Positions 2,165 through 19,230 of a DNA stretch of 42,136 nt are shown piece by piece; position 1 is the stretch's first letter; every line of letters begins with the position of its first letter. The translations under genes and the position numbers were made by a program. A model generated the notes under the pieces. The model was not told where the DNA came from, made no database searches, and saw only the letters and a list, made by a program, of their open reading frames with translations. The DNA is from a virus, in the IMG/VR virus record IMGVR_UViG_3300037394_000075, positions 1 to 42,136 of that record; one strand, 5' to 3'.

Positions 2165-2658
2165 CGAAAAATCAACAGGAGCTAAGCGATAACAAAAAGC
2201 ATGAAGAGTTGGCGAACCGCATCCTTGCGGAACTCGACGGCGTAATGCTGAAAAAGCTGAAGGAACTCAAGCCTGAACTGCTTGAGTTGCGTGGTTATTT
2301 TCAAGAGAAGGGGCGGAGCGGAAACATTCTGGGCTGCGAAACGTGGGCAGCGTTCTGTAGCGAGAAGCTGCACCGCAGCAAGCAAGCGGTCAATCAGATG
2401 CTTGCCGAACCCAAGCGGAAAGAAACTTTCCACCCTGACGAGCCTGACGCTGCAACGGCAGAGGGCAAATCACCAGAACCGCTCGAAACATGGGAAAAAG
2501 CTCAGAGTGAAGCCAAGAAGAAAGTTAGGCATTTCTTCACTGCGTTAGCTTCGGTGAAGGACATCGAAGGCAAAATGAACGACCTGCTGGACGGGCTGAT
2601 TCCTTGCCGCAAGTTCAAGATAACCGTCGAGGAAATCGAAGAGGAGGTTACTCAATGA
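2161..2658 (+). CDS. Hypothetical phage/plasmid-type early protein
   Basis: A 165-aa protein of unknown function. The core at about residues 20-85 is helical and includes LRGYFQEKGRSG, then CETWAAFCSEKLHRSKQAVNQML. This resembles a motif I have seen in uncharacterised phage and plasmid proteins, where a short W-x-x-FC helix is followed by an HTH-like helix. The C-terminal third is charged and probably coiled coil. The start overlaps the HTH gene (ATGA) and the end overlaps the next gene (ATGA at 2655-2658), so it sits in a tight early operon. A DNA-binding role is possible but not shown. Confidence 0.7.
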   Translation: MTKNQQELSDNKKHEELANRILAELDGVMLKKLKELKPELLELRGYFQEKGRSGNILGCETWAAFCSEKLHRSKQAVNQMLAEPKRKETFHPDEPDAATAEGKSPEPLETWEKAQSEAKKKVRHFFTALASVKDIEGKMNDLLDGLIPCRKFKITVEEIEEEVTQ

Positions 2659-4958: not shown

Positions 4959-5540
4959 AAACACCGAGCGTCTTGCGAAGCTCGATACTAGAAAGGCTTG
5001 AGAACCAACAATAGAAATAAGTAAGGGACAGCAATGTCCATGTCATGGTTAAGCGGATGCGTCTCAATCGGCTGGCTACCAGAACAACGGAATGGTACGA
5101 GGTTGTGCTCGACAGTCCTGGTAGCACCGATATTAAGAGAGTCGATTGGCAGACGAGTAGATTAGTAACACTGTGCAAGAACGTGAAACCCTACGTCGAA
5201 TGAAGCCGCTTGTCGGGTGACAATAAACGGACCCAAGTCCAGGAACACTGTGGACCCACACCGAGCTGACAAGATAGACGCTGCTGTCCTTGTCCCGTTC
5301 AGACTCTTTGTACTTGATGGATGATATCAGTAATAGCGGAGGGTTAGCTATTGCTCTCTCCGAACCCTTCTCCTCATTACCTTGATGAACAAAGCAACCC
5401 CGATAAGCAGCATTGTAGATGCTTGATTACCTGACAATAGTTGGTCATCTTTTCCCTCGCAAGCGTCGTCGACCACATACTAGTCAGTAGAGAAGTGTGG
5501 AGGACCATCGAGTCCGAAATCTTATTAGGAGCGGACATCA
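4959..5540. other. 582-base sparsely coding region with alternative hairpins
   Basis: No ORF of ordinary size lies here. Two overlapping short frames occur near 5034-5203 (see separate entry). AGTAATAGC (5329-5337) can pair, with one mismatch, to GCTATTGCT (5347-5355). An alternative stem pairs AGGGTT (5340-5345) with AACCCT (5363-5368), so the two hairpins exclude each other, as in an attenuator. GTCCA and TGGAC near 5237-5256 form another small stem. The ribosome site TAGGAG for the HNH gene is at the right edge. Any regulatory role is inferred only from these structures. Confidence 0.35.
5045..5203 (+). CDS. Possible small protein (two competing frames)
   Basis: A 52-codon frame starting at ATG 5045 encodes a protein-like sequence including TEWYEVVLDSPGSTDIKRV and ending KNVKPYVE. 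However, the good ribosome site AAGGGA (5023-5028) is spaced for ATG 5034, which opens another frame of 43 codons ending at 5165. The two overlap almost fully, so at most one is likely real. Amino-acid content favours the 52-codon frame; the ribosome site favours the other. Function is unknown. Confidence 0.25.
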   Translation: MVKRMRLNRLATRTTEWYEVVLDSPGSTDIKRVDWQTSRLVTLCKNVKPYVE

Positions 5541-5984: not shown

Positions 5985-6005
5985 CGTTGTGAATCGACAG
6001 AGTTG

Positions 6006-6320
6006 ATGATGTTCACATCCGAAGCACTCGCCGCTCAGAAAGCAGCTCGAAGGACTGAGGTAGACAAAGACTGGGCGAAATGTACTGACGAGTTGGTTAA
6101 TCGGGTTCTGGAAGCGTCAAGACGCGTCCCAAATGCAGGATTTGAAGAGTTCGCCGCTGAGTTTACTTTAGGTCCGAACGCATCGGCTGAACGCAAACTC
6201 GAATTGACAAACACATTGGCTGCCCTTAAGAGGACTCCAGCTCGCAGTTACTTCAAGCAACTCAAGGCGGTTATGGACGCCGCCCGTAATTCGTTTCCCC
6301 TTATCCCGACGGAGCCATGA
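6006..6320 (+). CDS. Hypothetical helical protein
   Basis: A roughly 104-aa mostly helical protein (SEALAAQKAARRTEVDKDWA, then LVNRVLEASRRVPN and LKRTPARSYFKQLKAVMDAA). No domain is recognised. Three in-frame starts (TTG 6003, ATG 6006, ATG 6009) lie together with no strong ribosome site; the first ATG is chosen arbitrarily. It lies 21 bases after the HNH gene and may share its transcript. Function is unknown. Confidence 0.6.
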   Translation: MMFTSEALAAQKAARRTEVDKDWAKCTDELVNRVLEASRRVPNAGFEEFAAEFTLGPNASAERKLELTNTLAALKRTPARSYFKQLKAVMDAARNSFPLIPTEP

Positions 6321-6511: not shown

Positions 6512-7330
6512 TTGACAAAGAACCTCGACATAGACAAAAAACCATTTTCCGCCCGCTCTCATCTCCCAACCAACGAATTTCCCACTCGCTACGAGGCGGC
6601 GATACAAAAGCACGTCAGCAAGTTAAAACGCGCCTTTTCCTTATCGCGCGAAGACGCAGAGGACTTGTGGCAGGACATCGTCCTGGACCTGCTGAGCATT
6701 CCGATCTCGCTGCGGGGGCAAAAGTATTACGTTCTCAAATGTGTCGCCAATGCAGCAGTGGATTCAATCCGACGAATCACGGGCAAGCGCCCCTCCGACT
6801 CTCAATCCCAGCGTCAGCGGACGGTCTATTTCGAGGAGCACCTACACGACGACTCCAGTAGTGCGCTGTGCCACCTGATTTCGAGAGCTACGACTGTTCC
6901 AAGCCCTGATTACGATCAGAACTTGATGCTCAACCGAGTTCGCCACCGATTGAACCCAGCCACCCTCGAACTGTTCGACTGGGTACTCAAAGAGCCGAAA
7001 CATAACCACGGCGACCTCGTCCGGTATTGCAGGAAAGAACTGAACATGAGCGCTGACGACATCTCAACGGCCCGACTGGAAATCGTAGAAGCCATGCACG
7101 TCTGCGGGCTGGCACTGAATTACCCACCGCCAGCCATTCATAAGCAGAAAAGGATGCGCAGGACTGCGGTTGAACGGCTCCATTGGCTTCAAGGCCTAGT
7201 AAATGCTGGATACACGAGGGTGAGCGAGGCTGCCCAAGCGGCGGGTCTGACTCCGTACGCCGTCAACTGGCACTGTCGCAAATATCACGGCTGTAACTAC
7301 AACGAGTTCGTCGCAAGGAGCAAACAATAA
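6512..7330 (+). CDS. Sigma-70-family (ECF-like) factor, phage encoded
   Basis: A 272-aa protein. Residues about 28-92 match sigma region 2: YEAAIQKHVSKLKRAFSLS, REDAEDLWQDIVLDLL and YYVLKCVANAAVDSIRR, the conserved core-binding and -10 recognition helices of ECF sigmas. The middle (120-200) is divergent and longer than in ordinary ECF factors. The C-terminus has a helix-turn-helix-like stretch (VSEAAQAAGLTPYAVNWHC) that could contact a -35 element. TTG 6512 is chosen because AGAGGA lies five bases upstream. It overlaps the next gene (TAATG). It lies just before the late region, whose intergenic gaps carry a repeated bipartite promoter-like element, so it may be the late-gene activator. That link is inference. 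Confidence 0.72.
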   Translation: MTKNLDIDKKPFSARSHLPTNEFPTRYEAAIQKHVSKLKRAFSLSREDAEDLWQDIVLDLLSIPISLRGQKYYVLKCVANAAVDSIRRITGKRPSDSQSQRQRTVYFEEHLHDDSSSALCHLISRATTVPSPDYDQNLMLNRVRHRLNPATLELFDWVLKEPKHNHGDLVRYCRKELNMSADDISTARLEIVEAMHVCGLALNYPPPAIHKQKRMRRTAVERLHWLQGLVNAGYTRVSEAAQAAGLTPYAVNWHCRKYHGCNYNEFVARSKQ

Positions 7331-8013
7331 TGAGCGTGCTGATCGGAATCACCACCTGTATTCGTGAACTGGAACGCAGAAACGCCGTCCGTCAGACTTG
7401 GCTACCGTGGGTTCAAAAACTCAATTCGGACGCTGACGTTTACTTCTTCTGTGGCAAACCACAACAGAATGTCCTTCCAATGGATGACTACTGCGAGGAT
7501 GTCGTTTATCTCGACTGTCCCGACACATACGAGCACCTTCCTCAAAAGACGCTCGGCCTAATCGAGGTCGCAGCCGAGTACGACTACGACCTTCTTATCA
7601 AGTGCGACTCCGATACCTACTTTCTGCCGTTGTACGACAACATTTCTGAATTCCTCAATTATGACTGTCTTGGTTCTGTGCGCGTCAATCCGCCCTGGAA
7701 CCAAGGCATTCCCTACGCTCAAGGCGGCTGCTATTCACTGTCAAAGCAAGCGATGCTGGAGGTTCTGAAACAACGGAGCCTGTTTACCATGGGTATAGAA
7801 GACGGAGCGATAGGGAAAGCACTTCACAGCGCCAACATTCGCCTTTGTCACTCCGACAGAATCAAAACGAATTACCGACAAGGCTATCCGTGCTTGGACA
7901 ACGACATTATCAGTGCTCACGGTTGTACGCCAGAGACGCTACACGAAATCCATGAATGCAATCTGCTGCACTTGCTGAGCGCCTATAACCAGACGATACA
8001 GAATGCCCAGTAG
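7330..8013 (+). CDS. GT31-like (beta-1,3-galactosyltransferase family) glycosyltransferase
   Basis: A 227-aa glycosyltransferase. Motifs in order fit the GT31 galactosyltransferase family: ERRNAVRQTWL near residue 15, a Rossmann-like strand DVYFFCGKP, the metal/sugar-nucleotide DxD in YDLLIKCDSDTYF (about 87-99), PYAQGGCYSLSKQAM, and the ED motif of MGIEDGAIG. Family members transfer a sugar from UDP donors. In a phage the acceptor could be a virion protein, host surface glycan or modified DNA base; nothing in the sequence decides. It lacks any membrane anchor. The start overlaps the sigma-like gene and the end overlaps the next HNH gene, so it belongs to the same operon. Confidence 0.8.
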   Translation: MSVLIGITTCIRELERRNAVRQTWLPWVQKLNSDADVYFFCGKPQQNVLPMDDYCEDVVYLDCPDTYEHLPQKTLGLIEVAAEYDYDLLIKCDSDTYFLPLYDNISEFLNYDCLGSVRVNPPWNQGIPYAQGGCYSLSKQAMLEVLKQRSLFTMGIEDGAIGKALHSANIRLCHSDRIKTNYRQGYPCLDNDIISAHGCTPETLHEIHECNLLHLLSAYNQTIQNAQ

Positions 8014-8365
8014 AGCCCCGCAACTGTGCTCTCGTTGCTCCACCCTGGATTGCCAGCAGCACGGCGTCAAGGCGGTTGGCCACGAATACGACCTTTGGCG
8101 TAAGAGAAAGGAGAACAACCCATTTGCCGCGCACTACAAGACGGCACGCTGGCAGGCACTGCGTCTCCGTCTGCTCGCAGCGACTCCCGTATGCATCGAG
8201 TGCAAGCACGCTCTCGCTACCGACCTAGATCACATGGTCGACGCCAAGCAGTGGGTTGCACAGGGTCATGACTTCTATGCGGAGGAAAACCTCCAGTGTT
8301 TATGTCGCCAATGCCACAGTCGCAAGACCAGCGTTGAGTGTGGTTGGGCAGGCAGGCACGGTTAG
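8003..8365 (+). CDS. HNH endonuclease (packaging-associated type)
   Basis: A 120-aa HNH nuclease. ARWQALRLRLLAATPVCIEC supplies the first zinc knuckle (two Cys), DLDHMVDAKQW the catalytic DH, and ENLQCLCRQCHSRKT the NxxxLCxxCH metal site. Small HNH proteins of this type next to terminase genes assist DNA packaging in several HK97-like phages, forming a complex with TerL. Here terminase is 2 kb downstream and separated by the ParB-like and ABC/GNAT genes. The start overlaps the glycosyltransferase end. The stop codon directly abuts the late-promoter-like element P1. Confidence 0.9.
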   Translation: MPSRAPQLCSRCSTLDCQQHGVKAVGHEYDLWRKRKENNPFAAHYKTARWQALRLRLLAATPVCIECKHALATDLDHMVDAKQWVAQGHDFYAEENLQCLCRQCHSRKTSVECGWAGRHG

Positions 8366-8421
8366 CAGCAATAAAACTGCGATCTCGTAAGTATTTGATA
8401 GGTATGAGGGGTATGCCCCTC
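8366..8421 (+). promoter_or_regulatory. Late-promoter-like element P1 plus leader hairpin
   Basis: CAGCAATAAA (8366-8375), 14 bases, then AGTATTTGAT (8390-8399): the same bipartite element, with the same spacing, seen at three other late-gene gaps. It is followed by a perfect hairpin, GAGGGG (8406-8411) and CCCCTC (8416-8421), in the 110-base leader of the ParB-like gene. No T-run follows the hairpin. Confidence 0.6.
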
Positions 8422-8509
8422 TCGATTGCCAAGTCGTTTGTTTCTAGGGAGCGTCGCAACATCGTTTTTTCACGTGCGCGAAATGAACAAGCGGGGCCAT
8501 AGAGGATTC

Positions 8510-9067
8510 ATGAAGCTATCAGAGCTGCAACCCGACCCGGAGAACGCCAACAAGGGAACGTTTCGTGGCAAGTGTGCCGTGGAAAAGTCGCTGCTCGATT
8601 GTGGAGCCGGTCGCTCCATCGTCACTGACAAGAACGGAGTCATTCTCGCTGGTAATAAGACCGCAGCCGCTGCTCAGGCCGCTGGATTGAACGACGAGGT
8701 GATTCTGGTCGAGACGGACGGCTCACAGCTAGTGGTCGTAAAGCGCACAGACCTGACGGTTTCAGACACGAAGGCTAAGACGCTGGCGGTTGCGGACAAT
8801 CGTACCGCTGAGCTAGGGCTGGAATGGGACCCAGACGCATTGAAAGACCTGTCAGGCGAGCTAGACATGAAAGCCTACTTTTCCCCTGATGAGTTGAAGA
8901 AAATAACCGAACCAGGAGCGGAAGCCAGTGAGGGAGAAAAAGAATTGACCATGGGCAACGATTTGAAGTTTCGAGTAATCATCGAATGCGCCAACGAGCA
9001 AGAGCAGTTCGACCTCCTCGAAAGATTTGAAAAGGAGGGTTTGACATGCCTGGCATTGACTTCGTAG
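8510..9067 (+). CDS. ParB/Srx-like N-terminal domain protein
   Basis: A 185-aa protein with a ParB-N-like fold at about residues 1-100: KLSELQPDPENANKGT, SLLDCGAGRSIVTDKNG, VILAGNKTAAAAQAAG and ILVETDGSQ follow the usual order of a polar box, an i+D strand, an AGxxxxxAA helix and a final strand. AVADNRTAELGLEWDPD is typical of phage ParB-like proteins placed near DNA methylases or terminases. ATG 8510 is preferred because AGAGGA is just upstream; longer in-frame starts lack a ribosome site. It overlaps the ABC/GNAT gene by 22 bases, suggesting joint action. A DNA-binding or CTP/ATP-dependent role is known for relatives; here it is inferred. Confidence 0.8.
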   Translation: MKLSELQPDPENANKGTFRGKCAVEKSLLDCGAGRSIVTDKNGVILAGNKTAAAAQAAGLNDEVILVETDGSQLVVVKRTDLTVSDTKAKTLAVADNRTAELGLEWDPDALKDLSGELDMKAYFSPDELKKITEPGAEASEGEKELTMGNDLKFRVIIECANEQEQFDLLERFEKEGLTCLALTS

Positions 9068-10146
9068 TTTCCAGCGTGATTTCTAACACACCCAGAGTCA
9101 AGCAACTCGCCTCCATCTTTGATGTGCCGCTCGCTCAAAAGTCAGAGATTCATTTCGACGGAAATCTTCCGATTGAAGACTTTGACTGGAATGTTGGCTT
9201 GATCGTGGGACCGTCGGGCTGCGGCAAAAGCTCGATTCTTAATCGAGTGTTTCGCATCTCGCCACCGCTTCAATGGGGAGCCGCCTCGGCAATTGACGAT
9301 TTTCCGTCCTCGATTTCTATTCAGTCCATTTCGGAGACGTGTCAGAGCGTCGGATTTAACACCATCCCCGCATGGATGCGCCCCTACGCTGTCTTGTCGA
9401 ATGGCGAAAAGTTTCGAGTCGAAATGGCTCGAAGGCTGCTGTCTGGCGTTGACACAATCGTGATGGACGAGTTTACCAGCGTGGTGGATCGCCAGGTCGC
9501 CCAGATTGGCTGTCATGCCGTTCAGAAGTATGTCCGCAAGAACAATCTCAAATTTGTCGCTGCGTCCTGTCACTTTGACATTCTCGACTGGCTACAGCCC
9601 GACTGGATCTTCGAGCCGAGCACGATGTCATTTTCTAGGAGGTCACTTCGGCCAAGACCATCCCTTGAGGTCGAGATTCGCCGCGTCGGATACGAATATT
9701 GGAAGATTTTCTCTCCGTTTCACTATTTAACCGCCGAACTCAACCGGTCCGCTCAATGCTTCGTTCTGTTCGTGGGCGGGCAACCAACATCGTTTTCTGG
9801 AATGTTGCACTTTCCCCACCCTAGCGTCCGGGATATAAAACGATGCTCTCGACTCGTTACGCTGCCCGACTGGCAGGGGCTTGGCTTGGCAATGATTCTC
9901 GCGGAAAAGATGGGAGCAGCATACAAAGCCGTCGGCAATCGCCTGAGAACATACCCTGCTCACCCGTCATTGATTCGGAGTTTCAACAAGTCCGATCAAT
10001 GGGCACTGATGAAACGCCCTGGGGAATATTCACCCCGCCGGGGTAACACGTCAGAAGTCGATGGGTTTGGAGGGCGTCCATGTGCCGTTTTTCAATACAA
10101 AGGCGAAGTGATGAATGCCGAAGACGCTAGGCGATTACTTGCATAA
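9046..10146 (+). CDS. ABC-type ATPase fused to Mom-like GNAT acyltransferase
   Basis: A 366-aa fusion. Residues 40-195 are an ABC ATPase without membrane segments: Walker A GPSGCGKSS at 55-63, signature LSNGEKFRVEMARRL from 117, Walker B VDTIVMDE at 135-142 and the switch His in ASCHFD (H176). Residues about 200-325 look like a GNAT acyltransferase related to phage Mu Mom: a beta stretch CFVLFVGGQPTSF, then SRLVTLPDWQGLGLAMIL with the acyl-CoA-type QGLG loop at 277-280, then RTYPAHPSLIRSF. Mom converts adenine in phage DNA to a carbamoylmethyl form that resists restriction. I infer a DNA-modification role here, with the ATPase loading or scanning DNA. It overlaps the ParB-like gene and sits under P1, so expression would be late, as for Mom. 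Confidence 0.82.
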   Translation: MPGIDFVVSSVISNTPRVKQLASIFDVPLAQKSEIHFDGNLPIEDFDWNVGLIVGPSGCGKSSILNRVFRISPPLQWGAASAIDDFPSSISIQSISETCQSVGFNTIPAWMRPYAVLSNGEKFRVEMARRLLSGVDTIVMDEFTSVVDRQVAQIGCHAVQKYVRKNNLKFVAASCHFDILDWLQPDWIFEPSTMSFSRRSLRPRPSLEVEIRRVGYEYWKIFSPFHYLTAELNRSAQCFVLFVGGQPTSFSGMLHFPHPSVRDIKRCSRLVTLPDWQGLGLAMILAEKMGAAYKAVGNRLRTYPAHPSLIRSFNKSDQWALMKRPGEYSPRRGNTSEVDGFGGRPCAVFQYKGEVMNAEDARRLLA

Positions 10147-10345
10147 CGAGGAAGAAATACTGGAGTCGCGCCAACGCTCAAAAGACTGGCGAAAGGCAAT
10201 AGAAGAATATTGCCCACACGGCGGCGCCCTGCTCGGAGACGAGCCGATAGACAAGAAAGAGAAAAAACATGATAGGTCGAAAACCGAAACCGACAGCACT
10301 GAAACTTCTGGCTGGAAACCCAGGCCATCGTCCGCTCAATGCTGA
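10115..10345 (+). CDS. Possible small charged protein between ABC/GNAT and TerS
   Basis: A 76-codon frame beginning inside the end of the ABC/GNAT gene and ending inside the small terminase gene. The first fifty residues are protein-like and acidic (GDYLHNEEEILESRQRSKDW, then YCPHGGALLGDEP), while the tail that overlaps terminase is low complexity. It fills the 122-base gap between two certain genes, which supports it, but no strong ribosome site is seen. Function is unknown. Confidence 0.4.
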   Translation: MPKTLGDYLHNEEEILESRQRSKDWRKAIEEYCPHGGALLGDEPIDKKEKKHDRSKTETDSTETSGWKPRPSSAQC

Positions 10346-10766
10346 TGAACCGAAACCTTCAGGAACTCCGACTTGCCCCGAACACTTGAACGAAACCGCT
10401 AACAGTGAATGGAATCGCATTTCTGGCGAGTTGTCCGCACTTGGGCTGCTGACCCTAGTAGATCGAGCCGCGCTCGCCGCCTATTGCATGGTCTATGCTC
10501 GCTGGGTCGATGCCGAGTTGAACATTCAGAAGTACGGAACAGTTATCAAGACGAAGGCGGGAAACGCAATTCAGAATCCTTACGTCGGTGTTGCCAACAG
10601 GGCGTTAGACCTGATGTACAAGTTTCAGAGCGAGTTTGGCATGACGCCTTCCTCTCGCTCCAGATTGTCAGTAACTCCGTCGAGTCAAGCGCCCGCTGGT
10701 TCTTGGGATGAGTTCATTGACCAAGTTCCAGAGGAGCCTTCGTTTGACCCCACCCAAGCAAATTAG
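10269..10766 (+). CDS. terS: Terminase small subunit, P27 family
   Basis: A 165-aa protein that recognises phage DNA and recruits the large terminase to start packaging. The N-terminus GRKPKPTALKLLAGNPGHRPLN is diagnostic of the P27 (Terminase_4) family. It is followed by CPEHLNETANSEWNRISGEL, LVDRAALAAYCMVYARW and NPYVGVANRALDLMYKF, the usual helical blocks. The length is normal for the family. It lies directly upstream of and overlaps TerL. Confidence 0.94.
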   Translation: MIGRKPKPTALKLLAGNPGHRPLNADEPKPSGTPTCPEHLNETANSEWNRISGELSALGLLTLVDRAALAAYCMVYARWVDAELNIQKYGTVIKTKAGNAIQNPYVGVANRALDLMYKFQSEFGMTPSSRSRLSVTPSSQAPAGSWDEFIDQVPEEPSFDPTQAN

Positions 10767-12546
10767 AAACTATCAGGCGATTGCAGACCAATATATTGAT
10801 GAGGTCATTTCAGGGAAAATAATCTCAGGAAGGTGGACGCGTCTGGCTTGTGAGCGTCAACGCAATGACCTCCTCCGTCAAGACACCGAAAACTTCCCGT
10901 ATGTTTATGACGCTTCGATAGGTGCCAGAGCCTGTCGATTCTGCGAACTGATGCCCCACGTGGAGGGCAAGCAGTTTGCTGGCAAGAAAATCATTCTCCA
11001 ACCGTGGCAAGTCTTCGTTACTCTCACTGTTTTCTCGTGGCGTGACAAAGAGGGTGGAAGTCGTTTCCGCCGTGCCTACACTTCCGTCGCCAAGGGGAAC
11101 GGGAAATCTACCTGGGCATCTCCCATCGCCTTGTTTCGTGCGTTCGCAGATAACGAACCGGGAAGCCAGGTGTACTCCTGCGCGTCTAGCAAAGAGCAGG
11201 CGAAGATCACTTGGTCAGCCGCTCGCCAGATGTTGATGAACTCGCCTCAGTTCACACAGCGAGCGGGTATCGAGATCGAAAAGCATTCCCTGCACCAAGC
11301 CAAGTCAAATAGTTTTTTCCGCCCGCTGGCATCAGATGACAGAACATCGGAGGGCAAAAACCCGACGTTGGTGCTGTTCGATGAACTTCACACGCTACAA
11401 AGCCGTGAGTTCTACGACTCGCTCGACACTGCAACGGGAAAGCGTCAAGGTTCGTTGCTGTTCGTAATCACCACGAGAGGGACCGACCTTAGTTCGTGTT
11501 GCTATGAACTGGATACCGAAGTCTGTAAGGTTCTTTCTGGTGTGCTCCACGATGAAACCCTGTTCGGAATAATCTACGCTCCTGACGATAAGGACGATTG
11601 GGCAACTCCAGCGGCATGGATAAAGGCGAACCCAAGCATTGATGTTTGCGTTTCCAGCAAGACTCTTCGGGACAAGTGTGCAGCCGCTATTCAGATTCCG
11701 AGCCAGCAGTCTTCATTCAAAACGAAGCACGGAAACACTTGGGTCAAGTCTGACCACACGTGGATGGACATGACGAAGTTTCTCGCCTGTGGCGATTCGG
11801 CTCTTAAAGAAGACGACCACCTAAAAGACGACTGCGTCATCGGTCTTGACCTTGCCTCGAAGCTGGACATTCTCGCCGGCATGAAAGTCTTTTATCGAAC
11901 GCTTGAAAACAAACGGCACTATTTCGTCTTCGGTTCTTATTGGCTGCCCGCCGACCAGATAAACAAGAAAGAGAACGGACATTACAAGGGCTGGTCTGCC
12001 CAACACATTATCAACGAATGCCCAGGTGCGACCAACGATTACGACGCCGTAGAGGACTGGCTGCGAGCAGAGTGCAAGAAATACAAAATCCAGTCGATTC
12101 CCCATGACCAGTATCAAGCTGTCGAGATTGTTAATCACTTGCTGGAAGAGAAACTCCCTATGGTGGAGTTCGCTCAGCGGGCAGTGTACTTTACGCCGCC
12201 AATGGATGAGCTAGAAGCGGCTGTGCTCGACAAGCGATTTCATTACAACTGCCCGATCTTAGCGTGGTCCATCAGCAATGTGGTCTGTCACCGTGACAGA
12301 AACGGAATGCTGTTTCCCACGAAAGACGCACCGCAAAACAAGATTGATCCCTGTGTCGCTTTGCTCATGGCGATCGGCACCGTAATGAAGTTGGCAGGCA
12401 CGCCGAAGTCAAGCGGAGGCGGCTCCATTTCAATAGTTGGTAACTGTCCCTGTACGGCTCTCGCTATCGGAGAAATGAACAACGGTACGCTTGTGTTCGT
12501 CTGTGACAAGTGCCGCGCAGCAGCAGCAATAACTCCCCACGCTTAG
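10744..12546 (+). CDS. terL: Terminase large subunit (HK97-type)
   Basis: A 600-aa packaging motor. ATPase domain: the adenine-binding segment QPWQVFVTLTVFSW, Walker A VAKGNGKST and Walker B LVLFDELHT. Nuclease domain: VIGLDLASKLD (first catalytic Asp), a central Asp near DAVEDW and a final Asp in KIDPCVALL. The frame opens at 10708, but TTG 10744 is chosen because GAGGAG (10731-10736) is seven bases upstream, leaving only a 23-base overlap with TerS. An unusual C-terminal extension after a Gly/Ser linker has CPC and CDKC pairs that could form a zinc ribbon. The gene end contains the upstream half of late element P2. Confidence 0.95.
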   Translation: MTPPKQIRNYQAIADQYIDEVISGKIISGRWTRLACERQRNDLLRQDTENFPYVYDASIGARACRFCELMPHVEGKQFAGKKIILQPWQVFVTLTVFSWRDKEGGSRFRRAYTSVAKGNGKSTWASPIALFRAFADNEPGSQVYSCASSKEQAKITWSAARQMLMNSPQFTQRAGIEIEKHSLHQAKSNSFFRPLASDDRTSEGKNPTLVLFDELHTLQSREFYDSLDTATGKRQGSLLFVITTRGTDLSSCCYELDTEVCKVLSGVLHDETLFGIIYAPDDKDDWATPAAWIKANPSIDVCVSSKTLRDKCAAAIQIPSQQSSFKTKHGNTWVKSDHTWMDMTKFLACGDSALKEDDHLKDDCVIGLDLASKLDILAGMKVFYRTLENKRHYFVFGSYWLPADQINKKENGHYKGWSAQHIINECPGATNDYDAVEDWLRAECKKYKIQSIPHDQYQAVEIVNHLLEEKLPMVEFAQRAVYFTPPMDELEAAVLDKRFHYNCPILAWSISNVVCHRDRNGMLFPTKDAPQNKIDPCVALLMAIGTVMKLAGTPKSSGGGSISIVGNCPCTALAIGEMNNGTLVFVCDKCRAAAAITPHA

Positions 12547-12565
12547 AAGTATCTGAATAGTAGGA
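12524..12565 (+). promoter_or_regulatory. Late-promoter-like element P2
   Basis: CAGCAATAAC (12524-12533), 14 bases, then AGTATCTGAA (12548-12557) followed by TAGTAGG. The upstream box lies inside the last codons of TerL. The start codon at 12570 is only 12 bases after the downstream box, so a transcript from here would have a very short leader containing TAGGA. Confidence 0.6.
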
Positions 12566-12569
12566 ATCT

Positions 12570-12719
12570 ATGAACAGAATTGCCGTCGTGTGCCTGCTTG
12601 CAGGCTTTGCCCTAGTTGTGGTCGGAGCAACACTTGTGTTCCACCCTCTCGGCTATCTTACAGCGGGAGCGGGTCTAATTTACGCCTCGTTACGTGCCAG
12701 CCCCAAACGGAGTAAGTAA
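12570..12719 (+). CDS. Small two-segment membrane protein
   Basis: A 49-aa hydrophobic protein: residues 3-24 (IAVVCLLAGFALVVVGATLV) and 29-41 (YLTAGAGLIYAS) look like two membrane segments with a basic tail, SPKRSK. Small membrane proteins between terminase and portal occur in related phages. A holin-like role is possible but unproven. TAGGA lies just before the ATG and the stop is three bases from the portal start, whose ribosome site AAGG overlaps the stop. It is the first gene after element P2. Confidence 0.7.
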   Translation: MNRIAVVCLLAGFALVVVGATLVFHPLGYLTAGAGLIYASLRASPKRSK

Positions 12720-12722
12720 GGA

Positions 12723-14399
12723 ATGGCAACACTCAAAGAAGAATTTAGGGATTTCATGTCATCGTTTGCCAGCAGCGGTCTATCGGACTTCTTGCCTGGG
12801 CTGATGCTTGCCCCATGCGAGTCGGGCGTTGCTGTGACAGAAATGACTTCGATGCAAGTGGCCGCGGTTGCTGCCTGCATCCGCATTCTCTCCAGCTCAG
12901 TAGGAATGCTGCCCTGCAACGTCTATCAGCGTGTTGAGGGCGGTTCCAATCTTGCCCCAGACCATGCCCTCTATTCCATTCTTCACGATACGCCCAATAA
13001 CGAGTATGCCGCCGTCGATTTCTGGTCGATCATGGAGGTCCACCGCGTCTTGCTGGGCAACTGCTACGCCGAGGTCATCAGGGACAATGGCGGTGGTCCT
13101 GCCGAGCTTTGGATTCGCTCTCCGTTCAGAACATTCCCTTATCGCGTCCAGCAGACCAGCAAACTTGTTTACAGGACTACCGACACGTTCGACGGCTCGG
13201 AACGAATGATTCAGCCCGAGAACATGATTCACGTTAAGAGTCTCGGCATTGACCCGTGGGTAGGCTTGTCCCCGATTCGTTATCACGCTCGGGAAGTATT
13301 GGGCGCTGCCATTGCCACTCAGAACTATGGCTCCAGACTCTTCAGCAACGATGCTCGTCCTGGCGGCTACATCTCGTCCGCCGACGTGCTCCAGCCAGAT
13401 CGCAAACTTCAGCTTGCAAACCAGTGGCAAGCTGCCCACAGCCGTGCAGGGTCGCACACAATGGCGATTCTCGACGGCGGCTTGAAGTGGGAAGCGGTCG
13501 GAATTCAACCTGATGAGGCTCAATTTATTCAGACTCGCCAGATGCAGCGTGAGGACATTGCAGCCATTTACGGCGTTCCACCTCACTTCATTGGTGCCCA
13601 GAATTCCGAGCGCTCCGCAAACCTTGAGCAACGTTTCCTTGAGTTTCTGGTTATGTCGCTAAAGCCTAACCTCCGTCGCTATGAGGCGGAGCTCAATGCC
13701 AAGCTCTTTGCCAATGTCGGGCGCAATGCCAATAAGTTCTTTGTCAAGTTCGATACCGCTGAGTTTGAGCGCGCTGACTTCGCCTCGACGCTCAAAGCAT
13801 TGCAGGTTGGTCGTTATGCAGGTCTCTACACGATTGACGAGGGACGCAGAATGTTGGGTCTTAACCCGATTGACTCTAAATCACTCGATGCCGAGAACCC
13901 AGGCGGAAGTCTCTGGCAGCCCGTCAACATGGTGCCAATCACAAACGGCGAGGACGAAGAACCAACCGCGCCTTCGGTTGATGCTCCTGTTGTCGGTCCA
14001 GACGGCAAAACTCCACCGCCCGTTGCTGTTGAGCCAGGGGCGCAACCCGATGCCGTCAGCGATGCAAGAGCGTTCTTTCCTGTCTTCTTTCCGCAGATGA
14101 AGGACGGCATTAGCCGCCTTTGCGCTCGAAATAAGACTGATTCAGGCGACTTCCAGAAGGTATTCACGCCCATTCTTGCGGGTGTCGCGAGCACCTACGC
14201 ACCGCTTGAGGGCGACATGACCCTGCCCGTAGAGGTCGCCGGGATGATTAAGAGCTACACACAAGCGATGTACGACCGTCACACAAGCTGGGACACGAAC
14301 GATTTGAACAAATTGACCACGGATGAACTGACGCTGGCTCTCCAAGCAATCATTCCTGCGGCCAAGAACTTCACAAACGAGGTATCACATGATGAGTAA
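12723..14399 (+). CDS. HK97-family portal protein
   Basis: A 558-aa portal subunit; twelve copies form the DNA gate and head-tail joining ring. Hallmarks in order: VTEMTSMQVAAVAACIRIL, the LPCNVYQR segment, LLGNCYAEVIRDNGG, the HVKSLGIDPWVGLSPI block, and QMQREDIAAIYGVPPHFIG near residue 285, all typical of this family. The C-terminal 160 residues are a Pro/Glu-rich linker and a helical domain beyond the conserved core, longer than in HK97 itself. It overlaps the protease gene by eleven bases, as usual in this module. Confidence 0.96.
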   Translation: MATLKEEFRDFMSSFASSGLSDFLPGLMLAPCESGVAVTEMTSMQVAAVAACIRILSSSVGMLPCNVYQRVEGGSNLAPDHALYSILHDTPNNEYAAVDFWSIMEVHRVLLGNCYAEVIRDNGGGPAELWIRSPFRTFPYRVQQTSKLVYRTTDTFDGSERMIQPENMIHVKSLGIDPWVGLSPIRYHAREVLGAAIATQNYGSRLFSNDARPGGYISSADVLQPDRKLQLANQWQAAHSRAGSHTMAILDGGLKWEAVGIQPDEAQFIQTRQMQREDIAAIYGVPPHFIGAQNSERSANLEQRFLEFLVMSLKPNLRRYEAELNAKLFANVGRNANKFFVKFDTAEFERADFASTLKALQVGRYAGLYTIDEGRRMLGLNPIDSKSLDAENPGGSLWQPVNMVPITNGEDEEPTAPSVDAPVVGPDGKTPPPVAVEPGAQPDAVSDARAFFPVFFPQMKDGISRLCARNKTDSGDFQKVFTPILAGVASTYAPLEGDMTLPVEVAGMIKSYTQAMYDRHTSWDTNDLNKLTTDELTLALQAIIPAAKNFTNEVSHDE

Positions 14400-15000
14400 G
14401 CTAACCAACGCCAAAGAGTACCGCATCTTTACGACGGAGTTGCGAACTGCAAGTGCCGATAGCCGAACGACCGAGGGCTACGGCGCAATCTTCAACACCG
14501 TCACGGACCTCGGCTTCTTCAAGGAGCGGATTGTGCCCGGTGCTTTCACACGAGCAATCACCGAAAAGCAGGACGTCCGTTTTCTCTTCAATCACAACGC
14601 CGACAACGTGCTGGGACGCACCAAGAACGGAACGCTTACTTTGTCGCAGGACAATACGGGGCTAAAGTTCGTTAACGACATGCCCGATACCACGACAGGT
14701 CGAGACGTTCACACACTCGTTCAGCGTGGTGATGTCGATCAGTGCTCATTCGGCTTCATTGTTCGAGACGAAGAGGTCACTTACAGCGACGATGGCACCT
14801 GTCTGCGCTCCATCAACGATGTGGATTTGTTCGATGTGTCCATTGTGACGTACCCAGCCTATGAGTCCACTAGCGTGGAAGCCCGAAGCCGTGACGCGGC
14901 TGCCCAGGCCTACGCGATACCTGACGCAGATCCTGTGCCAGATGTGATGGACATCGAAACCGCTAGACGACTTACTTATCTCGCCAGCCTTGAGATGTAA
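14389..15000 (+). CDS. HK97-type prohead protease
   Basis: A 203-aa capsid maturation protease. TEGYGAIFNTVTDLGFF and ERIVPGAFTRAI match the family's N-terminal strands. The catalytic His is in FLFNHNADNVLGR and the catalytic Ser in DQCSFGFIV, followed by DVDLFDVSIVTYPAYEST, the usual end of the fold. It cleaves the capsid delta domain during assembly. GAGGT precedes the ATG at a good distance; a second ATG is one codon later. The tail after residue 165 is variable. It lies between portal and capsid, the canonical order. Confidence 0.95.
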   Translation: MMSKLTNAKEYRIFTTELRTASADSRTTEGYGAIFNTVTDLGFFKERIVPGAFTRAITEKQDVRFLFNHNADNVLGRTKNGTLTLSQDNTGLKFVNDMPDTTTGRDVHTLVQRGDVDQCSFGFIVRDEEVTYSDDGTCLRSINDVDLFDVSIVTYPAYESTSVEARSRDAAAQAYAIPDADPVPDVMDIETARRLTYLASLEM

Positions 15001-15107
15001 GACAGGACAATCGACATGCGCTTGATCGCGCCCTGGTAGGTTCGCATCCGACTTTAACCAGCACCCGATGTATTGTTGCTTACCCTTCAGTGGAGACCTA
15101 TCTGAAT

Positions 15108-15428
15108 TCATCCAGTCCCCCTAGGTGAACTTGCTTCGAGTGCTTCCAGAAGAGTTACACCATACAACCGCTGTAGCTCTTTAGTAATGTACTCAACACG
15201 TTGTTCATCGGCAGTAGAATCATACTCGTACCCTACATAAGTTCCTCTGGACGTGATCAGAACGCTTTCGGACAGAAGATTGCCGTAAGGCTGTTTCATG
15301 CTCATGAAACAACGCATCAACAGAACATCACCTGTCTCAGGGACCCTGATACTGCCCCGCTTATAACCAACTTTGTAGGCCAATACCAACAGTATGACCA
15401 CAGACATGAGCAGGAAAACATTGTTCAT
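15108..15428 (-). CDS. Membrane-anchored hypothetical protein on the opposite strand (moron candidate)
   Basis: A 106-aa protein encoded against the late genes. The N-terminus NNVFLLMSVVILLVLAYKVGYKRG is one membrane anchor with a basic stop, followed by a soluble domain (DVLLMRCFMSMKQPYGNLL, then SRGTYVGYEYDSTADEQRVEYI). No domain is recognised. The minus-strand ATG at 15428 has an AAGGGGA ribosome site. A TATACT -10 lies 19 bases upstream of the start. Such independently promoted genes inserted between capsid-module genes in the reverse direction are often prophage morons expressed in the lysogen. Function is unknown; a host-envelope or exclusion role is speculation. The 107 bases to its left, after the protease stop, show no gene. 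Confidence 0.72.
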   Translation of the reverse strand: MNNVFLLMSVVILLVLAYKVGYKRGSIRVPETGDVLLMRCFMSMKQPYGNLLSESVLITSRGTYVGYEYDSTADEQRVEYITKELQRLYGVTLLEALEASSPRGTG

Positions 15429-15446
15429 ATATTCCCCTTAATGGGA

Positions 15447-15452
15447 AGTATA
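15447..15452 (-). promoter_or_regulatory. -10 box for the reverse-strand gene
   Basis: The minus strand reads TATACT here, 19 bases before the minus-strand start at 15428. No good -35 hexamer is seen at 17 bases, so the promoter may be weak or activated. Confidence 0.4.
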
Positions 15453-15507
15453 CAGGAAAATCCAGATCATCGCCGCCGGAGTAAGAGAACCCGTCTTCAC
15501 TGCCCAT

Positions 15508-15556
15508 CAGCAATTATCACCTGAGACTCATAAGTCCGAAGTATTTGATAAGTAGG
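15508..15556 (+). promoter_or_regulatory. Late-promoter-like element P3 (variant spacing)
   Basis: AGTATTTGAT (15540-15549) followed by AAGTAGG matches the downstream box of the late element. The nearest upstream-box match, CAGCAATTAT, is at 15508-15517, eight bases further away than at the other four sites. The capsid start is about 90 bases downstream. Either the upstream box here is unrelated or the site is a divergent member. Confidence 0.45.
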
Positions 15557-15638
15557 ACCCGTAACGCAACCTGCGCCACGGTCATAGTTCCCACCATGAG
15601 AGTTGGAGGAACGTCACTCCTACTTACAGGACTTATCA

Positions 15639-16919
15639 ATGTCAAAGATTTTAGAGTTACGTAGTAGTCGCGCCACACTTGTGGCCGAAATGAAGTCGAT
15701 CCTTGAAAAGAACGACAAGCTCACCCCGGAGCAAGACAATCGCTGGAAGGAACTGGACGCAAAGCAGCAAGAACTCAAAACTCAGATTGACCAACTTGAG
15801 CGGACCGATGCTCTTGACGCGGAACTGCGTCAGGTAAACCGCCCTGCTAACTCGCAGGTTGGTGATGTGGACAAGCGTATCAATCCATACGCCGCCGCCG
15901 AAACCCGCGTAAAGCAAATTATCGGCACAGACGAGTATCACAACGAGTTCCGCAATTATCTCCGCACAGGAACAATCTCCGACAGCATGCATGAGGTTCG
16001 TACCTACGCTGGCCTCGGTGACGCCTCAGGTGCAGCGGGCGTAACACTGGTGCCCGTCGGATTTCAGAAGCAACTCGAAATCAAGTTGAAGGCTATTGGC
16101 GGAATCCGTCAAGCAGCCCAAATCCTCACTACAGCAACCGGCAATGCGCTGCACTACCCGAAGATGGACGACACCGCCAATCAAGGGTCATGGATTGCTG
16201 AAGCCACGGCGGTAAATCAGACCAACCCAAGTTTCTCGGAAGTTGTGCTCAGTGCAAATCTTGCGTCTTCCGACCAAGTGTTGGCCTCTGTTCAGCTTTT
16301 GCAGGACAGTGCATTCGATGTCGAGCAGTTCCTTGCCGACGCGTTCGGTATTCGTTTGCAGCGTCTCACCAACCTTGGCTATACGAAGGGAAGCGGCAGT
16401 GGACAGCCAACCGGGCTGGTAACCGCGCTCATCGCCGACGGCACCCGTGGCGTAACCGCAGTGGGTTCCAACTCCAACTCTGGCAACTCAAACGATACGG
16501 ACGTTGACAGCGTCGGCTCAGACGATTTGGACAACCTGATTACGAAAATTGACCCAGCGTACCGTATGAACGGTTCTTTTCAAGCGAACCAAGCGACATT
16601 TGACGCTCTCCGCAAGGTGAAGGACAAATACGGGCGTTCCATTTGGTCCGCTGGTTTGGCAGAAAAAGAGCCTGACACAATCCGTGGGTACAAGTATTAC
16701 TACAACCAGCACATGGACACGATTGCTCCAATGGCGAACTCCATGCTGTTCGGAGATTTTACGAAGTACATTATTCGTGATGTCCTGGGATTCCAGCTCG
16801 TTCGTTTCAATGAACTCTTTATGAGTTCTCATCAGGTTGGCTTCCAGGCCTATCTGAGAACGGACGGAAACATTCTCCAGACTGCGGCATTCGCAATGCT
16901 TCAGCACCCTTCGTCCTAA
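15639..16919 (+). CDS. HK97-fold major capsid protein
   Basis: A 426-aa capsid subunit. Residues about 10-75 are a charged coiled coil (LVAEMKSILEKNDKL, LDAKQQELKTQIDQLERT), the delta/scaffold domain expected to be removed by the neighbouring protease. The mature part includes AAGVTLVPVGFQKQLEIK, MDDTANQGSWIAEATA, LQRLTNLGYTKGSGSGQPTG and NQATFDALRKVKDKYG, all typical of the family. ATG 15639 is chosen because CAGGA precedes it by seven bases; the longer frame starting upstream lacks such a site. A strong terminator follows the stop. Confidence 0.96.
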   Translation: MSKILELRSSRATLVAEMKSILEKNDKLTPEQDNRWKELDAKQQELKTQIDQLERTDALDAELRQVNRPANSQVGDVDKRINPYAAAETRVKQIIGTDEYHNEFRNYLRTGTISDSMHEVRTYAGLGDASGAAGVTLVPVGFQKQLEIKLKAIGGIRQAAQILTTATGNALHYPKMDDTANQGSWIAEATAVNQTNPSFSEVVLSANLASSDQVLASVQLLQDSAFDVEQFLADAFGIRLQRLTNLGYTKGSGSGQPTGLVTALIADGTRGVTAVGSNSNSGNSNDTDVDSVGSDDLDNLITKIDPAYRMNGSFQANQATFDALRKVKDKYGRSIWSAGLAEKEPDTIRGYKYYYNQHMDTIAPMANSMLFGDFTKYIIRDVLGFQLVRFNELFMSSHQVGFQAYLRTDGNILQTAAFAMLQHPSS

Positions 16920-16943
16920 CAAGACGAAGGCGTTCCTCAACAG

Positions 16944-16975
16944 GGCAGGCTCGTTCTGAGTCTGCCTTTCCTTTT
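16944..16975 (+). terminator. Intrinsic terminator after capsid gene
   Basis: GGCAGGCTC (16944-16952) and GAGTCTGCC (16958-16966) form a nine-pair stem with one G-U pair and a five-base loop, followed by TTTCCTTTT. It separates the capsid gene from late element P4, which begins two bases after the T-run. Confidence 0.8.
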
Positions 16976-16976
16976 G

Positions 16977-17016
16977 CAGCAACAACATCACTGCATTCGC
17001 AGTATTTGAACATTAG
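16977..17016 (+). promoter_or_regulatory. Late-promoter-like element P4
   Basis: CAGCAACAAC (16977-16986), 14 bases, then AGTATTTGAA (17001-17010). It lies immediately downstream of a strong terminator and 15 bases upstream of the next start codon, exactly where a promoter is needed. This is the best positional evidence that the repeated element is a promoter. Confidence 0.65.
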
Positions 17017-17025
17017 AGGTACTCC

Positions 17026-17172
17026 ATGAAGAAACGACCACAGTTAGAGCGTGAATCTACGAGCTTGTCACCAGCGAAGCACTATGCGGTTCGCCCTTCC
17101 GCCGTGAAGAAAACCAAAGACAGATTTCCTCGTCCTCCTGTCATACGCACTCCTAAAAAGAAGGCTAAGTAA
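17026..17172 (+). CDS. Small highly basic protein
   Basis: A 48-aa protein with about a third Lys/Arg and many Pro (KKRPQLERESTSL, ending VIRTPKKKAK). AGAGGT (17015-17020) precedes the ATG, and the stop overlaps the next start (TAATG). It is the first gene of the connector/tail operon under P4. Function is unknown; nucleic-acid or capsid binding is possible from charge alone. Confidence 0.65.
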   Translation: MKKRPQLERESTSLSPAKHYAVRPSAVKKTKDRFPRPPVIRTPKKKAK

Positions 17173-17954
17173 TGTCAAGCGTGATCCAAACTGCGTATCC
17201 GTCAGTGGAACCCGTCAGCCTTGCGGAGATGACAAATTACTGCAAGGTCTTCGTCGCTTCGGATAACGACCTCATTACCGACCAGATTACTGCCGCTCGT
17301 GAGTGGATCGAAGACCAAACGGGATTGTGTCTGGCATCTCGCAACTTCATTCAGTTCGAGGACTCGCTTCCGTCAATTCCCTATGGATTCTCAGGCTACG
17401 CATACTCAGCCAGTCAAAATGCTTACTTCGGGTACGGTCCCCTTACACCCTATCCACCGATGGGCTGGAATCCCCGTGTCAATCCATTCGAGATCCAGAT
17501 CATCCGCAATCCCGTAACGGCAATCGACCACATTGAGTACATAGACACATTCGGAAATCTTCAGACGCTTGAACCAGGTCTGGACTTCGTGATGGACCTC
17601 GTATCGACGCCCGCTCGTGTCGCCCCACTCCCAGGTCAGCGTTGGCCACAGGGAATGGTCGGTCTAAACAACGCCCGCATTTACTTTACCGCTGGGGGAA
17701 CGCTGGGCACAGATGGCACCGAGACTGTCACGGATCCCGATGCTCCGACCCCACCAGACCAAGACAGCAACTCGTTCACCATGACGACCGACATTCCGAG
17801 GGCGTTGAAGATTGCGATTTTCCAGCTTGCGCTCCATTGGTATGAAAATCGTGGCTCGGTGACCGCTGGGGCTGCTAACTCGATTCCGCACTCGCTTGAC
17901 AACATCGTCAAGAGCTACAGAGTGCTCAACATCAATCCAGTGACGAGGTGCTAA
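17172..17954 (+). CDS. Head-tail connector protein, gp6-like
   Basis: A 260-aa adaptor that docks below the portal. The N-terminal block VEPVSLAEMTNYCKVFVASDNDLITDQITAAREWIEDQTG is the standard gp6-like/phage_connect pattern (quoted here only in part as VSLAEM and AAREWIEDQTG are the diagnostic pieces). The C-terminal helix IPRALKIAIFQLALHWYENR followed by a Pro-His segment closes the fold. The central 100 residues, rich in Tyr and Pro, are an insertion relative to the short forms. Order and neighbours agree with a siphophage connector module. Confidence 0.88.
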   Translation: MSSVIQTAYPSVEPVSLAEMTNYCKVFVASDNDLITDQITAAREWIEDQTGLCLASRNFIQFEDSLPSIPYGFSGYAYSASQNAYFGYGPLTPYPPMGWNPRVNPFEIQIIRNPVTAIDHIEYIDTFGNLQTLEPGLDFVMDLVSTPARVAPLPGQRWPQGMVGLNNARIYFTAGGTLGTDGTETVTDPDAPTPPDQDSNSFTMTTDIPRALKIAIFQLALHWYENRGSVTAGAANSIPHSLDNIVKSYRVLNINPVTRC

Positions 17955-17957
17955 GGA

Positions 17958-18326
17958 ATGGCACTTCGCCGACTCAACGATGGATTCAGATATAGCGACC
18001 GTGGAAGCTTCCGTGACCAAGTCACGTTGATGATGCCTGCCGCAGACAGCCTGCCCGATGGCAGTCCGAGCACACCGATCGTGTTCGCCTCAAACGTGTG
18101 GGCTTATATTCGTGCGCTGCGCTCGCAGGAAGTCAACACCGCTGACCTGGTTCAGAGCGAGTTGTTCTACGACGTGCGCATTCCCTATCTAGCGGGCGTG
18201 AACTCGGCGATGACCGTTATCTCGCCCAGCGGGGCGACGTGGTTCATCGTCAACGTTGCTGATCCCGATCAGCGTCAGGTCGAATTGCGGATGCTTTGCC
18301 GTTGCATCAACGACGGGGCCGTATAA
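17958..18326 (+). CDS. Head-tail adaptor (phage_H_T_join family)
   Basis: A 122-aa stopper/closure protein. The order of elements fits the family: FRDQVTLMMPAADSL, then VWAYIRALRSQEVN, FYDVRIPYLAGVNSAM, VISPSGATWFIVNVADPD and the closing beta strand RQVELRMLC. It sits three bases after the connector gene and directly before the gp10-like gene, the usual arrangement of HK97-type joining proteins. Subunit contacts are inferred from family knowledge. Confidence 0.88.
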   Translation: MALRRLNDGFRYSDRGSFRDQVTLMMPAADSLPDGSPSTPIVFASNVWAYIRALRSQEVNTADLVQSELFYDVRIPYLAGVNSAMTVISPSGATWFIVNVADPDQRQVELRMLCRCINDGAV

Positions 18327-18327
18327 G

Positions 18328-18774
18328 GTGAGCGACATCACCATCAGAGTCTCGGGCCTCGACGAACTCAAGCGGCGGCTCGATTCGTTGGACGACGGCA
18401 AGCTTGCTCGCTCGATGATGCAGACGGGGGCTCGAAAGGCAGCGAAAGTGCTTCTGGCCGCGCAGCAGCAGACCGTACCCGTCGCTGATGGTCGTTTGCG
18501 GGACGCGCTAGGCATACAGGTCAAGAGGGCAAAGAGCGACAAGCTTCAAGTGCTGATTGGGCCTGATCAAAAGCTCAATTTCATTGGAAGATTTCACGAG
18601 TTCGGCACCAAGTTCATGGCAGGCATTCACTGGATGCAAAAGGCATTTGACTATTCCTGCAACGATGCATTGGACATCTACACTGCGGAAGTCACCCGGA
18701 TGCTGGACAAGAAAATGTATGCGGACCTGATGGCTGCAATTGAAGACGGGCTAGCAGCGGGAGATGACGAATAA
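18328..18774 (+). CDS. HK97 gp10-like tail completion protein
   Basis: A 148-aa protein. ITIRVSGLDELKRRLDSL, KAAKVLLAAQQQTVPVADGRLRDAL, and FIGRFHEFGTKFMAG are the diagnostic blocks (the final RFHEFGT is a family hallmark). GTG 18328 is chosen since it follows the adaptor stop by one base and begins the conserved region; the open frame upstream reads across the adaptor gene. The gene overlaps the next by a TAATG. It helps join tail to head. Confidence 0.92.
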   Translation: MSDITIRVSGLDELKRRLDSLDDGKLARSMMQTGARKAAKVLLAAQQQTVPVADGRLRDALGIQVKRAKSDKLQVLIGPDQKLNFIGRFHEFGTKFMAGIHWMQKAFDYSCNDALDIYTAEVTRMLDKKMYADLMAAIEDGLAAGDDE

Positions 18775-19184
18775 TGATCCAAGAAGGCATCAATCAACTG
18801 TTGAAAGCTGATCCGACTTTGTCGGCGTTGACGACGCAGATCGTCCCAGTTGGGGTGGTCAAGGGCGTAACGAGTCCCTATATCGTCTACCACATCGGTA
18901 CGGCTCTCGACACGCTCGACACACAGGGGTCAACTGGGTATCGCTTGGCGCGATTTCAGTTCGACGCCTACAGCACCCTGTCTTACGCCGAGGCTAAGGC
19001 GGTCGTCAAGGCGATCCGGGGCGTGCTCCAAAACTTCCAGAACACTGCTCTTTCAGATTCTGACAGCACCTTCGTCCAAGGCTGTCTTATCGACATGGAA
19101 TCGGACATGCCATTTGTTCCGCAAGGTGTCGCCTCAATCGAATATAGAGTTATGGTTCAAGTGTCAGTCTTCTACAAAGAGTAA
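18774..19184 (+). CDS. Tail completion protein, DUF3168-like
   Basis: A 136-aa protein equivalent to lambda gpU. IQEGINQLLKADPTLSAL opens the family, followed by SPYIVYHIGTALD, ARFQFDAYSTLSYAEAKAVV and a final YRVMVQVSVFYKE strand. It caps the tail tube end facing the head. The start overlaps the gp10-like stop, and it ends right before late element P5. Confidence 0.9.
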   Translation: MIQEGINQLLKADPTLSALTTQIVPVGVVKGVTSPYIVYHIGTALDTLDTQGSTGYRLARFQFDAYSTLSYAEAKAVVKAIRGVLQNFQNTALSDSDSTFVQGCLIDMESDMPFVPQGVASIEYRVMVQVSVFYKE

Positions 19185-19189
19185 CCCAC

Positions 19190-19230
19190 CAGCAATAACT
19201 CCACCAAGTTAGCAGTATTTGAATAGTAGG
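19190..19230 (+). promoter_or_regulatory. Late-promoter-like element P5
   Basis: CAGCAATAAC (19190-19199), 14 bases, then AGTATTTGAA (19214-19223) and TAGTAGG. It lies six bases after the tail completion gene and upstream of the abundantly needed tail tube gene, with a leader of about 65 bases. Confidence 0.65.

Follow-up and report, generated by a model that had tools for sequence, protein, structure and literature searches.

A repeated two-box element ahead of the late genes of an uncultivated virus, and a candidate phage sigma factor that may read it

The DNA analysed here, the 42,136 bases of the uncultivated virus record IMGVR_UViG_3300037394_000075 (hereafter the window), opens with an integrase gene and early genes, followed by an HNH endonuclease gene, a gene at 6512-7330, a galactosyltransferase gene and an HNH gene. 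The order then continues through ParB-like, small terminase (TerS), large terminase (TerL), portal, protease, capsid, head-tail connector and tail genes, and defence-type genes occupy the right arm beyond the tail genes. The phage is probably a temperate-type siphovirus bearing an integrase. Two of its features are treated below: a bipartite element, CAGCAAYAA(C)-N14-AGTATYTGA, which is repeated in the gaps between late genes, and the product of the 6512-7330 gene, a candidate sigma factor that would read it.

Exact copies of the element were found on the plus strand at 8366, 12524, 16977 and 19190, the four positions given in an earlier reading made from the letters of the window alone (the sequence-only reading); the expected number was 0, and none of 100 dinucleotide shuffles contained it. 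The downstream box, AGTATYTGA, has five exact copies in the window (8390, 12548, 15540, 17001 and 19214), all on the plus strand and all in late-gene gaps just ahead of late genes, with none in the left arm and none in the right arm, which bears out both the common orientation and the absence from the arms claimed earlier. All sites fall between 8366 and 19222, at the operon heads of head and tail genes. Written as hexamers, the four full sites read CAAYAA, exactly 17 base pairs (bp) and TATYTG, a predicted promoter of sigma-family geometry with non-housekeeping boxes. Compared with the sigma70 hexamers TTGACA and TATAAT, the upstream box agrees in 1 of 6 letters and the downstream box in 3 of 6, and only the 17 bp spacing fits; the sequence-only reading was right that neither box looks like a housekeeping one, but had missed the canonical sigma spacing. 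None of the five sigma70-type promoter hits in the window coincides with a late-element site. A weight matrix built from the four full sites and one site in a related contig (L006, see below) gave the four sites 33-35 bits, scores that are partly circular given how the matrix was built, against 12.4 bits for the runner-up in the window (30466, minus strand). As 12.4 bits was attained by 7 of 60 shuffles, this near-match was set aside as background. A relaxed form of the pattern occurred twice in approximately 3.8 Mb (two bacterial genomes). Repeated ahead of late genes, always in the same orientation, and rare elsewhere, the element is distributed as would be sought for a late regulon under a phage sigma factor.

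The first predicted late promoter, P1 (8366-8398, plus strand), consists of CAATAA (8369-8374), 17 bp and TATTTG (8392-8397), with an HNH gene immediately upstream and ParB-like, methyltransferase, TerS and TerL genes downstream. P2 (12524-12556, plus strand; CAATAA at 12527-12532, 17 bp, TATCTG at 12550-12555) is likewise predicted to be a late promoter; it overlaps the 3' end of terL and is followed by a small membrane open reading frame (ORF) and the portal gene. Predicted promoter P4 (16977-17009, plus strand; CAACAA at 16980-16985, 17 bp, TATTTG at 17003-17008) stands between the capsid terminator and the head-tail adaptor genes, and predicted promoter P5 (19190-19222, plus strand; CAATAA at 19193-19198, 17 bp, TATTTG at 19216-19221) lies in the gap between the tail terminator gene and the major tail protein gene. 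The intrinsic terminator 3' of the capsid gene and directly ahead of P4 (16942-16976, plus strand) has a stem at 16942-16968 followed by TCCTTTTG, and the P4 box begins at 16977; folding of 16936-16976 gave -18 kcal/mol (z -3.65), in agreement with the claim that one site directly follows a strong terminator. P3 (15540-15548, plus strand), ahead of the major capsid gene, consists of the downstream box AGTATTTGA only, without a proper upstream box, and is proposed to be a weak or single-element site. Here the sequence-only reading held for the downstream box but not for an upstream box placed eight bases further away: the displaced candidate, CAGCAATTA at 15508, is a one-mismatch match, and because the window contains many matches of this kind (32 observed, 17.6 expected) it is probably a chance occurrence and was discounted as background. 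As a separate observation, the stretch after the P3 box (15548-15640) holds an inverted repeat, TTGATAAGTAGGA ... TCCTACTTACAGGACTTATCAA, extending to the capsid start codon, so placed that folding of this leader could cover the ribosome site.

Between the downstream box and the next plausible ATG lie about 13 to 90 bases, depending on the site. The leaders of P2 and P4 are very short, their start codons following the box by 13 and 16 bases, and those of P1, P3 and P5 are longer. Leader stem-loops, taken as evidence of start sites, are clear at P1 only, where a stable one lies right at the predicted start (z -3.1) and lends slight support to that position; they are weak at P3 and P5 and absent at P2 and P4. 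An asymmetric sequence repeated in a single orientation in short gaps could also represent repressor sites of the stoperator type or start-associated sequences, which would block elongation or mark translation starts, systems that occur among mycobacteriophages (PMC9283540, PMC3203893). Against this stands the constant 17 bp between the two boxes, and the variable distance to the ATG, in place of a fixed short one, speaks for sites that are independent of start codons. There are moreover five sites only, all at late-gene heads and not spread genome-wide, and one of them stands just behind a terminator both in the window and in a related phage (L074, see below), a place at which blocking elongation would serve no purpose. 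We regard this explanation as very improbable.

Conservation was followed in related viral contigs. Out of 2.9 million viral contigs scanned, 68 stretches matched the exact motif. One belongs to L053 (= L005), which is nearly identical to the window (3 mismatches in 13.3 kb), is taken to be the same virus and does not count as independent evidence, and one to L006; the remaining 66, in other contigs, all lie inside open frames of at least 80 amino acids (aa) and were set aside as chance. L006 is a 6.6 kb contig whose TerL is 71% identical to that of the window. Its site, after terL at 5872, reads CAATAA, 17 bp (read off the sequence) and TATTTG, with a spacer unrelated to that of the window. 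The L006 terL stops inside the upstream box (CAG CAA TAA), whereas terL in the window continues in a different frame and has its stop inside the spacer of P2; since the two are read in different frames and the spacers are unrelated, it is the DNA that is conserved and not the protein. L074 (TerL 70%, 41.5 kb contig) has the entire head and tail module in common with the window and carries a diverged element, CAATAA or CAAAAT (CAAWAW), 17 bp and TATCTA, then TAAGTG or TAACCA. Counterparts of P2, P4 and P5 were located in the terL-portal gap (11805), in the capsid-adaptor gap (17152, directly behind a terminator of -22.5 kcal/mol, z -5.6) and in the gap that separates the tail terminator gene from the gene for the major tail protein (contig position 11548, reverse strand), respectively. 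The protease-capsid gap of L074 reads GCTATCTATTG, and no upstream box stands at the proper distance, as at P3 in the window; no counterpart of P1 was found in L074. The spacer is exactly 17 bp in the four window sites and the three L074 sites. A blind search for a 12-base motif in four homologous gaps returned the downstream box at 12.2 bits in the window (null 9.1 +/- 0.35; 0 of 200 random windows) and 11.7 in L074 (null 9.5 +/- 0.4; 0/200). In the same gaps of L078 (TerL 49%) no repeated element rose above chance (9.4, null 9.6 +/- 0.57), and similarities seen there by eye were dropped on this score. The late motif was thus found in the window/L005, L006 and L074, and the search of related phages, a check proposed with the sequence-only reading, returned a kept site in L006 and a drifted one in the corresponding gaps of L074.

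These comparisons also bear on whether the element could reflect chance, coding constraint or a module-boundary sequence conserved for recombination only. The overlap of P2 with the coding end of terL and the location of the 66 matches in other contigs inside open frames would fit such an origin. It is strongly disfavoured, to the point of being hardly credible, by the absence of the element from the shuffles, by the difference in frame at P2 between the window and L006, and by L074, in which the sequence has diverged and positions and spacing are kept, unlike an identity-based recombination sequence.

The candidate reader is encoded at 6512-7330 (plus strand, 272 aa, TTG start), with a sigma-2-like domain at about residues 20-95, a sigma-4-like domain at about 136-200 and an extra C-terminal stretch of approximately 58 residues that is helix-turn-helix (HTH)-like. 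All searches together gave a single homologue (L074:5085-5735, 44-45% identical), which is without this stretch. L074 alone gave a homologue among the viral contigs, none was found in the other fetched loci or in the phage collection, plasmids gave a weak partial match only, and searching PDB sequences with the sigma profile returned nothing relevant. Pfam Sigma70_r2 matched the window protein at E 0.0057 and the L074 homologue at E 0.0024. A two-sequence profile (window and L074 proteins) aligned by hhalign to 11 small bacterial sigma factors scored 70.8% in one run, across columns 1-202, and 78.7% with default settings, the match then being confined to region 2, against 0.4% for the reversed profile and at most 1.0% for 30 column shuffles. 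Across 44 window ORFs the 6512-7330 product scored 47.6% and the runner-up 7.6%, so that the protein suspected in the sequence-only reading is the sole window ORF scoring clearly against sigma factors. At the head of the Foldseek list for the L074 homologue stand sigmaE and sigma28, none of the hits being significant (E at least 0.75); the window model gave nothing significant. With VIA-align, the top eight rows for the L074 homologue were all sigma factors (Z 6.5-7.7), several across both domains; its two-domain alignments include sigma28, sigmaH and, lower down, sigmaE. The list for the window model is headed by sigma28 and also contains T4 gp55 (7d7c_F), with unrelated helical proteins intermixed. 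By Pfam, hhalign with clean controls and fold comparison, the protein is a distant relative in region 2, the part of a sigma factor for core binding and -10 recognition. As regards region 4, the part for -35 recognition, no significant sequence match was found in the 6512-7330 protein; helices at 136-197 are rightly placed, and the two-domain alignments to sigma28, sigmaE and sigmaH span 11-193 or 16-202. Sequence profiles and predicted models together point to a two-domain sigma factor (region 2 and region 4), region 4 being the less certain.

A sigma-like protein is present in both genomes in which a long readable stretch bears the element (window and L074), and in both its gene adjoins the same galactosyltransferase gene. 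The latter, galactosyltransferase-like, occupies 7330-8013 in the window, right after the sigma gene, and likewise L074:5696-8698; in L006:564-2696 and L074:5696-8698 the galactosyltransferase-like part sits within a much longer glycosyltransferase-like ORF. Elsewhere in the window, a protein of 89 aa encoded where the tail genes end (30473-30742, scanned within the longer ORF 30277-30795) has a weak resemblance to sigma-70 region 4 (E 0.004) and is possibly a small DNA-binding regulator.

Taken together, we consider it likely that the five elements are late promoters and that the phage uses the 6512-7330 protein as a sigma factor directing the host core RNA polymerase to them. From the operon-head positions, the single strand, the promoter geometry, the DNA conservation in L006 and the L074 counterpart we infer a phage-specific late regulon, as the sequence-only reading had proposed. 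A different reader is conceivable: the late promoters could be recognised by an alternative sigma factor of the host, or by its sigma70 with the help of a phage activator bound at CAGCAAYAAC, the 6512-7330 protein then either not being the reader or acting as an activator. Late genes of many temperate phages are under activators, TATYTG retains 3 of 6 letters of the sigma70 -10 box at a spacing of 17 bp, and the window protein bears the extra HTH-like stretch. Against this, the downstream box has changed in step with the sigma homologue, from TATYTGA to TATCTATAA in L074, which is what a sigma reader would lead one to expect; no further window ORF scores as a sigma factor, and no L074 homologue was found for any other candidate regulator of the window. 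Recognition by such a host factor or activator is judged unlikely, if less so than the other alternatives.

Several points weigh against the assignment of the late promoters to the 6512-7330 protein. Both Sigma70_r2 matches lie below the curated cut-off, the predicted models are of middling confidence (predicted local distance difference test, pLDDT, 61.5 and 68.8), fold Z-scores stay below 8 throughout, which is below the conclusive level for helical proteins, and the case for region 4 is built on the order and placing of the helices. Shortly ahead of its sigma homologue, L074 has another ORF with a weak likeness to region 2 (L074:3923-4765; E 0.032 in Pfam and E 0.1 to a PHROG sigma factor), for which no counterpart was found in window ORF 4056-4958. 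The sigma gene and the motif are linked in two phages only (window and L074); L006 has the motif and shows no sigma gene on its 6.6 kb contig, which is too short to tell; and P3 is without an upstream box. Of two genome scans made to find the host, the first gave no relative and the second, among long matches, only TerL relatives of at most 43% identity, plus a 69-residue fragment at 57%. Recognition of the sites by the sigma factor, the transcript start points (5' ends included) and the timing are what we infer from the sequence. In the proposed sequence of events, an early transcript through 6512-8365 would yield the sigma factor, whose region 2 would read TATYTG(A) and whose region 4 would read CAAYAA, 17 bp upstream. 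By analogy with phage 7-11, transcription would start about 6-9 bases past the downstream box at P1-P5, the resulting transcripts would cover terminase, portal, capsid, adaptor and tail genes, and P4 would re-initiate transcription behind the capsid terminator.

Other relatives may use a different code. In L075 (TerL 68%), the slot between the homologue of 6003-6320 and the galactosyltransferase gene is covered, and the sigma gene is absent there. The terL-portal gaps of L075 (7299) and L076 (1413) carry ATACTAGATAGG (ATACTAGATAG) in place of the late element found in the window at 12524. The comparison covers very few genomes and partial contigs; it suggests that whole promoter codes may have been swapped within the group. 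The odds are about even that the group is an undescribed temperate-type siphovirus lineage with its own late sigma factor, in which sigma factor and promoter drift together (CAAYAA-17-TATYTGA versus CAAWAW-17-TATCTATAA) and positions stay fixed. In L075, ATACTAGATAGG additionally borders a conserved non-coding block, which in the window extends over 4992-5476 (core about 5020-5403), upstream of an HNH endonuclease gene, and comprises approximately 390 bases with stops in all frames. Its mean column identity with L075 is 88% over a 592-column alignment, higher in the core, and in the window it is flanked by the only two ATACTAG sites (4985 and 5477). No match was found in Rfam and none in phages, and the fold z is -1.7; the block is a candidate for a new phage RNA. 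The protein encoded at 9046-10146 is 91% identical to the L075 copy, compared with 68% for TerL, which suggests recent exchange of this gene. Among the remaining genes of the window, 2604-3854 encodes an AlkB-like 2OG-Fe(II) oxygenase domain fused to DUF4326, and 34154-39362 in the right arm encodes relatives of SspB (DUF4007), SspC and SspD with very strong PADLOC matches, that is, phosphorothioation-type defence genes carried by the phage; neither SspA nor SspE was identified.

Late-gene sigma factors of phages are best documented in the lytic phages 7-11, phiEco32 and T4. Here, an integrase-bearing phage of roughly 42 kb appears to use a late sigma factor of its own, with targets readable from the sequence alone. 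The window and L074 form a natural pair, homologous candidate sigma factors with matched, diverged promoters, with which one could test directly how promoter specificity changes in a phage that stays functional, and from which small orthogonal sigma/promoter pairs could be drawn. In T4, late promoters consist of a -10-like TATAAATA only, and the sigma-like gp55 requires a clamp and a co-activator. The likeness would lie in a sigma-like phage protein that assigns late promoters to the host RNA polymerase; in contrast to T4, no clamp- or co-activator-like gene was identified in the window. By tblastn against the phage collection, in which the presence of 7-11 and phiEco32 was unchecked, no match was obtained for the window protein (E at most 0.1) or the L074 homologue (E at most 1); as no sequence relationship to gp47 or gp36 was found, the window system is not called a member of their group by descent. 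The gp36 promoters of phiEco32 have one element, tAATGTAtA, are read by a sigma factor without region 4 and serve middle and late genes (PMC8948821). Repeated sites, and a phage sigma factor acting on them with host RNA polymerase, would be common to both systems, and P3 resembles a single-element site, whereas four of the five window sites carry two elements. Phage 7-11 has a sigma factor with regions 2 and 4 (SaPh711_gp47) and a bipartite late promoter, GTAAtg-16-aCTA, which is repeated ahead of late genes, its positions being kept among relatives as the sequences change, and transcripts start 6-9 bases after the downstream element (PMC8948821). The window shares with it a phage sigma candidate, a repeated bipartite late promoter and constancy of position under changing sequence; it differs in its boxes (CAAYAA-17-TATYTG), in having an integrase where 7-11 is lytic, and in that the window and L074 appear to represent drift within homologous sigma factors, not independent acquisition. 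By analogy, the system of the window would work like those of the 7-11/phiEco32 group, its closest known parallel.

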